Shown: positions 2,179 through 3,346 of the stretch, one piece after another | How the letters are laid out: every line of letters starts with the position of its first letter | Position numbering within the stretch: the stretch's first letter is position 1 | From: Psychrosphaera sp. B3R10 | GTDB taxonomy: Bacteria; Pseudomonadota; Gammaproteobacteria; Enterobacterales; Alteromonadaceae | Direction of reading: 5' to 3' | DNA length: 64,000 nucleotides | Assembly: GCF_018861025.1 (NCBI RefSeq) | Contig: NZ_JAHKQH010000001.1 | Location: forward strand, 1-64,000 | Translations under genes and position numbers: made by a program | Notes under the pieces: model-generated | Database searches by the model: none | What the model was told of the DNA's origin: nothing | The model's input: only the letters and a program-made list of their open reading frames with translations

Positions 2179-2214
2179 ATGGATAATAACTTCACCAAAT
2201 AAACCTACTTCGGG

Positions 2215-2395
2215 TAAAGTGAGACCCAGGCTTTAGCTGCAACTAAAGCCCTCTTTTGTGGCAGTTCGATTGAGCGATGGCTCCTCAGTTGAGAGACCGA
2301 TAACAAGAAAGAACGCCACAAAAGACTTCAAGCACAAAACTCGAATAGTCTACTGGGTCTCGAACCCGCATTATGCAAGCAAGAGTCAGCTTATT
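2215..2395 (+). ncRNA. Candidate bridge RNA of the IS110 element
   Basis: The leader between the element's left edge and the transposase start has nested complementarity. GAGACCCAG (2221-2229) pairs with CTGGGTCTC (2353-2361). Inside it are a hairpin GGCTTTAG / CTAAAGCC (2229-2250) and a stem CTTTTGTGGC (2253-2262) / GCCACAAAAG (2315-2324). The last stem encloses a loop containing GAGAGACC and TAACAAG (2301-2307). TAACAAG equals the attC end box next to the insertion point. IS110 elements are known to express such RNAs to guide target and donor choice. Exact RNA ends are unknown. Confidence 0.6.
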
Positions 2396-3346
2396 ATGAA
2401 TACAAAAACAAATCAAAACATTAACGTCGGTGTTGATACTGGTAAGTTCCAACTCGACATTTATATCCGCCCTTTGGATATTTATTTCACCGTTTCAAAC
2501 GATGAAAAAGGGATCAATGACGCGGTTAAAGAAATTAAGAAACATAAGCCTGAGCGCATTATTATCGAAGCTACAGGTCGTCTTGAAATGCCTTTTATAA
2601 TCGCATGCGCCAAAGCCAAATTACCGTTTGTAATTGCCAATCCAATTCACATAAAGCGCTTTGCTGGTGCGATAGGTCAACGCGCTAAAACAGACAAGTT
2701 AGACGCGCAATTAATAGCCCATTACGGTGAAGCGATAAAACCGAACTTATCTCAATTAAAGCCAGACACAATGCAAGCTATGAGCGATTTAGTCGCAAGA
2801 AGAAATCAATTGTTAGTGATGCAAACCATGGAAAAGAACCGACTACAAATCTTACCTAAGAACTTAGCCATGACGATTAAACCTATCCTTACCGCATTCA
2901 AAAATCAGATAACAAAGATAGAAAATAAAATTGTTGAGCTAATTGAAAGCTGTCCAGATTATCAAGCCAAAAACACAATTCTTCAAAGTATGAAAGGCAT
3001 AGGTAAAATCGCATCCGCTTCACTCATTAGCAACCTGCCAGAATTAGGTTATATGACGAACAAACAAGCCTCAGCTTTAGTAGGTGTTGCACCTATGAAT
3101 CGAGAAAGTGGTCGCTTAAAAGGTCAAAGAAAAATCCAAGGAGGAAGGCACCAAGTGAGAACGGTTTTATACATGGCGATGATGTCAGCCATTCAATCAA
3201 ATCCAGTTTTCAAAGAAACATATCAACGCTTAGTTGCGGCTGGAAAGCCGAAAAAAGTAGCCATAATTGCATGTATTAGGAAGATGATAGTTATCTTAAA
3301 TTCGATGCTCAGAGATGGTGTTTTATGGGAAGCGCCAAAGATGTGA
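2396..3346 (+). CDS. IS110-family DEDD transposase/recombinase
   Basis: The 316-residue protein catalyses movement of the element. The N-terminal RuvC-like DEDD domain shows VGVDTGK near residue 15, IIIEATGR near residue 60 and [10 protein letters not shown] near residue 105. The C-terminal Tnp_20 domain has [34 protein letters not shown] and AGKPKKVAI, with the serine expected for catalysis in the family probably in the NRESG segment. The start is ATG at 2396. The frame is open upstream to 2258, but that stretch overlaps the structured leader and does not look like protein. The gene appears intact, so the element may be active. Confidence 0.9.

Follow-up and report, generated by a model that had tools for sequence, protein, structure and literature searches.

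Bridge RNAs have been described for IS621 and other IS110 elements, and published accounts (PMC11208160, PMC11208158) place the RNA in the left end of the element, with a 5′ stem-loop, a target loop and a donor loop, bottom-strand guides ahead of top-strand guides, handshake positions, a promoter formed across the joined ends, and a DEDD transposase with a serine. By the published layout rule (PMC11187229, PMC11208160), the RNA of IS110 elements lies mainly upstream and their subterminal repeats are short or absent, while in IS1111 elements the RNA lies mainly downstream and the repeats measure 7 to 17 bp; named exceptions to the rule exist. Targeting of integron attC sites is known for IS1111 elements, and the seekRNA has been purified for ISKpn4 and ISPst6 (PMC11187229). 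ISKpn4, ISPst6, and ISPa25 are described as inserting at one end of the attC (Tetu & Holmes 2008 and Post & Hall 2009, as cited in later papers), and in the IS1111-attC seekRNA two RNA segments are reported to match both target strands (PMC11187229). Class C-attC group II introns are attC parasites as well, but they are described as retrotransposing ribozymes with another mechanism (PMC9229058). A Shewanella survey reported IS110 elements in cassette arrays, none of them interrupting an attC (PMC9229058). For IS110-group elements in attC sites, the titles listed in our search, which covered mainly open-access journal literature, were only of work on IS1111-attC elements; an earlier description is possible. 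The accessible text of PMC11089894 and PMC12444791 mentions attC-targeting elements of IS1111 only, and one abstract labels ISPa21, a member of the IS1111 group, "IS110" (PMC11616780).

Here, we followed up a sequence-only reading of a 64,000-nucleotide stretch of DNA (the window), which had proposed that a noncoding leader within it is a bridge RNA carrying an attC guide. We consider it very probable that the leader specifies the bridge RNA of an insertion sequence of the IS110 group that is specialized on integron attC sites. The main claim of that reading held up in sequence tests, in that the stems are kept and one guide loop tracks its target, and a bridge RNA with an attC guide is, from sequence alone, by far the best account of the locus. 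The RNA structure is conserved, and the left target guide, the left donor guide, and the handshake positions covary with their partners. The mechanism itself is known; what seems to be new is an IS110-group layout combined with a target loop that is dedicated to attC and has a left guide tracking the target. RNA-guided attC targeting, shown for IS1111 (PMC11187229), would now also be found in an IS110-group lineage of opposite layout.

The IS110-type insertion sequence occupies 2177-3373 on the plus strand (1.2 kb, a count that includes one copy of the TT core), as do all of the element's features given below; the core copies lie at 2175-2176 and 3372-3373, one at each junction. Alignment indicates that the element is inserted at this TT within an attC. 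An element-free attC of the same genome, on contig C1, is nearly identical and runs unbroken through GCGC-TT-GTTA (L164), and the left part of the occupied attC is approximately identical to it. The larger part of the interrupted attC, the left flank, lies at 2073-2176 on the minus strand and extends from the distal box GCCTAAC (2073-2079) to the TT core, as judged from the box, the arm pairing, and the alignment to the empty C1 site. The remainder, TTGTTAGAT (3372-3380, minus strand), is the right target and overlaps the stop codon of a ParE-type cassette gene. The site has the GTTA box in its right flank, a complementary distal box within the range of 50 to 150 nt, a cassette array around it, and an integrase in the genome. 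The array stands at the start of contig C15 and holds two intact attC-like sites nearby (about 982-1079 and 1679-1768); the one full integron integrase of the genome is on C1, where a further cassette array reaches the contig end. One copy of the element was found in the host genome (48 contigs). With the attC behind the ParE-type gene split, the integrase would be expected to fail to excise that cassette; more generally, such insertions may hide a site from attC finders and should freeze cassettes. The cassette in question contains the ParE-type toxin and a ribbon-helix-helix antitoxin (3375-3638 and 3625-3867, minus strand).

The element encodes an IS110-type DEDD transposase of 316 amino acids (2396-3346), with PF01548 and PF02371 domains and an NF033542 match above the cutoff. 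A phmmer comparison with IS621 gave an E value of 6.4e-29, and among proteins of solved structure its relatives by sequence are IS621 and ISCro4. D14, E58, D100, D103, and S238 align (counted by hand) with the five active-site residues of IS621, whose numbers we took from PMC11208158. The noncoding stretches measure 219 nt between core and ATG and 25 nt between stop codon and core; relatives share the upstream-leader layout, and the element ends are kept among them. The only subterminal repeat, with the ends read by eye, is TATGG/CCATA (5 bp).

These features bear on whether the element is simply an IS1111-attC element of the known kind, related to ISKpn4, ISPst6, and ISPa21. Such elements share with it the target type, the DEDD transposase, and the promoter across joined ends. 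They are, however, described as having the RNA downstream of the gene, the top-strand match first, and longer repeats, whereas here the long noncoding region is upstream, the bottom-strand guide precedes the top-strand one, the repeat is 5 bp rather than 7 to 17, and only 25 nt of noncoding sequence lies downstream (published criteria from PMC11187229 and PMC11208160). No named IS1111 protein was seen among the 60 rows listed of 2,581 records or the 60 listed of 2,859. We regard an IS1111 identity as very unlikely; by layout, guide order, and repeat length under the published criteria, the sequence falls on the IS110 side. The nearest IS-named element among the plasmid listings was ISEc32 (about 40% identity), which likewise has an IS110-type transposase and an upstream leader; unlike our element, it has no TAACAA guide and no TTGTTA flank in the stretch read, and a covariance model of our leaders (see below) misses its leader at an E value of ≤1.

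Relatives were collected by protein search, which at E≤1e-20 was positive in 15 of 60 related genomes and at E≤1e-60 in 36 of 394 genomes from the order, the element's own genome being counted in each case. Seventy-one loci lay in the genome collection, and 22 plasmid records matched at ≥60% identity. Once two antisense pattern matches inside the gene had been removed (76 to 74), 74 distinct leaders were extracted from the fetched loci; three of these loci (L105, L114, and L125) each hold the element twice in the fetched stretch. The set for the left target guide comprised 64 distinct pairs (10 of the 74 had an unusable or duplicate pair), that for the donor guide 58 elements (16 of the 74 were without a readable donor guide or right end), and the structural alignment 69 leaders, with L022, L042, L062, L072, and L113 excluded by choice (lengthened hairpin, damage, or near-duplicate sequence). 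A tree of 61 transposases places the 52 rows with an attC-type guide and/or flank in one group, with support of 100/100, and leaves the other 9 outside; a long-branch warning applies to these 9. This fits a single origin. Under a stricter label, with both guide and flank read (41 rows), the labeled rows are not one group (9 changes), rows with only one feature being interspersed among them.

The structured part of the putative bridge RNA spans 2206-2389. The window's leader folds on its own (2190-2397) at -60.9 kcal/mol, compared with -44.8 (standard deviation, 4.4) for 200 shuffles (z = -3.67; 1 of the 200 was as good). In the 69 aligned leaders, 95.3% of 2299 alignment cells are standard pairs and 19 of 34 pairs show double changes, so homologous leaders do keep their stems, as the sequence-only reading had expected. 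The covariation score was 0.288, versus 0.140 in shuffles (0 of 500 as high), pairing fell to 29.5 to 43.8% when partners were slid, and RNAalifold recovered nearly identical helices unprompted. The covariance model matches the window's leader, one of the sequences it was trained on, at 216.9 bits; outside the training set, L058, L142, and L147 reach 172.6, 186.3, and 197.2. Other IS110 leaders score low (L150, 22.9 bits; L152, 18.5; L154, 16.4). Searched against 369 genomes of the class, the model has matches in 12, one of them the element's own genome, and 3 of the 12 are weak. Rfam has no family at its gathering score anywhere in the 64-kb window.

Most double changes fall in either the 5′ stem-loop or the stem of the target loop. 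The 5′ stem-loop (2229-2250) pairs GGCTTTAG with CTAAAGCC (2229-2236 with 2243-2250) in 8 pairs, 6 of which have double changes. The target-binding loop (2252-2325) is closed by an outer stem of TCTTTTGTGGC and GCCACAAAAGA (2252-2262 with 2315-2325), with double changes in 8 of its 11 pairs, and contains an apical hairpin at 2279-2298. The donor-binding loop (2339-2386) has the stem ACTC/GAGT (2339-2342 with 2383-2386) and the hairpin GGGTCTCGAACCC (2355-2367); these helices are 94.9 and 98.9% paired, respectively, and have double changes in 1 of 4 pairs each (in the hairpin, a UA/CG exchange). In some Alteromonas/Paraglaciecola-type leaders (L022, L042, L067, and L139), the donor-loop hairpin is longer and contains an ACCGGT-type insertion. 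A further stem, GAGACCCAG with CTGGGTCTC (2221-2229 with 2353-2361), is the outer one of the nest first described. Its helix GAGACCC/GGGTCTC (2221-2227 with 2355-2361) is paired in 93.5% of cells in relatives; 3 of its 9 pairs show double changes, which is equaled or exceeded in 53 of 500 shuffles. This outer stem and the donor-loop hairpin are mutually exclusive, and the outer helix is possibly a second RNA state (a switch) or a by-product. The minimum-energy single fold was given up as working structure in favor of the covariation-backed fold, with the outer stem kept as an unexplained alternative. Of the three nested stems originally described, all are present, but two lie side by side within the outer stem rather than all three being concentric.

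Conserved stems could also belong to a structured mRNA leader or attenuator that controls transposase expression, with attC specificity residing in the protein. The RNA end immediately precedes the transposase start codon, and the 5′ stem-loop with CTCTTTTG resembles a terminator with its T-rich tract; the region holds 2 such structures against 1.3 expected from shuffles. The T tract, however, belongs to the target-loop stem, in which there are double changes, and an attenuator would leave unexplained why 2269-2278 tracks the left flank, why 2345-2351 tracks the right end, and why the handshake positions covary. We consider the attenuator highly improbable.

The tracking expected of a bridge RNA is clearest for the left target guide, ATTGAGCGAT (2269-2278), for which the 10 bases preceding the apical hairpin were compared with the 10 bases left of the TT core, two registers being allowed. 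Over the 64 distinct pairs, guides matched their own flanks at a mean of 6.52 of 10 positions, versus 5.05 when flanks were exchanged (z = 11.0; 0 of 20,000 permutations). The idea that a guide loop covaries with its target was thereby confirmed, though for a stretch that the sequence-only reading had overlooked: it placed the guide elsewhere in the loop and missed this segment, which bears most of the target tracking. When each distinct guide contributed a single pair, z was 9.9 (n = 42). Six elements (L003, L043, L044, L106, L109, and L149) match at 9 of 10 positions. The elements and hosts are not independent, and TTGAGC-like arms are common to many attC sites; the guide-flank match might simply reflect kinship, with related hosts carrying both attC sites and elements that are themselves related. 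Against this, the composition-keeping permutation gave 0 of 20,000, and the signal persisted when permutation was restricted to classes set by the other guides (6.58 versus 5.35; z = 7.5; 0 of 20,000; n = 53, with the right end of L062 misparsed as TTGAC in these data and in those on GAGAC below) and within the largest guide class (z = 6.1; n = 28). Nor did 22 other leader positions of the same elements yield anything comparable (z from -3.1 to 2.1). Kinship as the explanation is, in our view, extremely improbable.

The own flank is the best or tied best for only 19 of the 64 left guides, and the best fit is divided between two registers one base apart, which simple rigid pairing fails to explain. 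A single left guide can adjoin several different flanks; ATTGAGCGAT itself stands beside 6. For the window's element, guide and flank agree at only 5 of 10 positions, there are 24 other flanks with a better fit to this guide, and further TTGTTA sites in its own arrays score 3 to 6. Because of this, the window copy is only moderately fitted to its present site, not finely matched to it. GG follows the guide, which can therefore include no more than one core base, unlike in IS621. A further difference from IS621 is the core, TT here and CT there, although IS621 is reported to work with a TT core as well (PMC11208158/PMC11208160), and the target here is an attC box plus arm.

The right target guide, TAACAA (2301-2306), is complementary to the core TT plus the GTTA of the attC. 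It forms part of the TAACAAG motif (2301-2307) named in the sequence-only reading. Its place in the target loop and its near constancy beside TTGTTA support that assignment, as does its one co-change, TAATAA with TTATTA (L003/L025); the right flanks of L026 and L123 contradict tracking. The right flank reads TTGTTA in 51 of 55 elements, where the TT was preset by the search pattern, and a guide so nearly invariant offers little variation with which to test covariation. Five of the loci found with the covariance model (L166, L167, L169, L170, and L172; transposase identities of 70, 56, 48, 50, and 41%) all combine the TAACAAG guide with the TTGTTA flank, and by eye the first four of these, but not L172, have a left donor guide matching their right end. 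TTGTTAG was not enriched in the genome (532 + 557 places, versus 537 + 570 for the reversed control). It is far too common to suffice alone, and the left guide must therefore add specificity.

The whole clade likely targets attC sites, an enrichment seen in the set and not insertion by insertion. An NAACGC distal box occurs 45 to 170 nt leftward in 42 of 70 elements, versus 231 of 1320 control windows. Stricter tests gave weak results. The strict box RYYYAAC was present in 18 of 70 flanks, hardly more than in shuffled ones (13 of 70); together with an arm energy of ≤-9, the counts were 6 versus 0. Arm pairing reached z≤-3 in 5 of 55 elements, and a TAAC-containing partner was found in 23 of 55.

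The sequence-only reading had taken GAGAC in the target loop (2293-2297) as the donor guide, complementary to GTCTC in the right end (3367-3371). We rejected this candidate: among 24 elements with a different right end, GAGAC is kept in 22, namely 13 of 13 with GTCGT and 9 of 11 with GTCAC. The donor guide is in the other loop, where ATAGTCT (2345-2351), the left donor guide, has the same letters as the right end ATAGTCTC. In 55 of 58 elements, guide and right end agree at the two variable positions; the other three have T against G. For the right donor guide we propose GCATTATGCAA (2368-2378), which would pair with the core TT plus the left end GTATG. This assignment is suggested by complementarity and position; the GCAA within it is nearly invariant. 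Target and donor share the TT core, and in some relatives (L038 and L025) variation in the neighboring C and G is confined to one side.

In IS621, the two bases that follow each top-strand guide are reported to pair with the other DNA after exchange (PMC11208158). The corresponding GA in the target loop (2307-2308) is complementary to donor positions p7 and p6 (C and T). Expected values here assume independent rows: donor p7 is Watson-Crick paired in 56 of 57 elements (37.5 expected) and donor p6 in 46 of 57 (22.6 expected), with 10 of the 57 breaking the latter pair. In the donor loop, GC (2379-2380) is complementary to target p7 and p6 (C and G). Under the same assumption of independent rows, target p7 forms 46 Watson-Crick pairs (37.8 expected) and 14 G-U pairs in 64 elements, and target p6 pairs in 37 of 64 (23.7 expected) and breaks the pair in 27 of 64.

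A promoter also appears to be reconstituted at the circle junction, as judged by sequence only. The -35 element TTGACG (3356-3361) lies within the right end and the -10 element GATAAT (2182-2187) in the left, and the two come to be 17 nt apart only once the ends are joined in a circle. Among 62 rebuilt junctions, 46 read TTGACG-17-GATAAT, and 60 have at least 9 of 12 matches. By homology, excision would join the ends into a circle, the junction promoter would then drive transcription of the leader, and the DEDD transposase would bind the RNA. The first loop would read the attC, where its right guide TAACAA would pair with TT-GTTA, the nearly invariant box, and its left guide with the variable arm beyond the TT core; the second loop would read the circle junction, through ATAGTCT for the right end and GCATTATGCAA for the left end. 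Strand exchange would presumably take place at TT, assisted by the handshake pairs as in IS621.

One speculative, and unlikely, possibility is that the lineage keeps one guide on the invariant attC box and rapidly rewrites the other to follow the attC arms of its hosts, perhaps through copying of target sequence into the guide and not solely through point mutation and selection. The L003/L025 example would fit such copying, since its left guide is identical to the flank at 9 of 10 positions and its right guide and right target have changed together. Whatever the route, the clade offers naturally occurring variants of guide, target, donor, and handshake positions, in which target switching by a bridge RNA can be tested from nature. 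Elsewhere in the window, a HigB-like toxin gene (204-647, minus strand) lies in another cassette of the same array, and a tandem array with a 101- to 102-bp unit containing GGATGACGTTTTT is found at 4155-4786 (about 6 copies) and again at 5182-5393 (about 2 copies).
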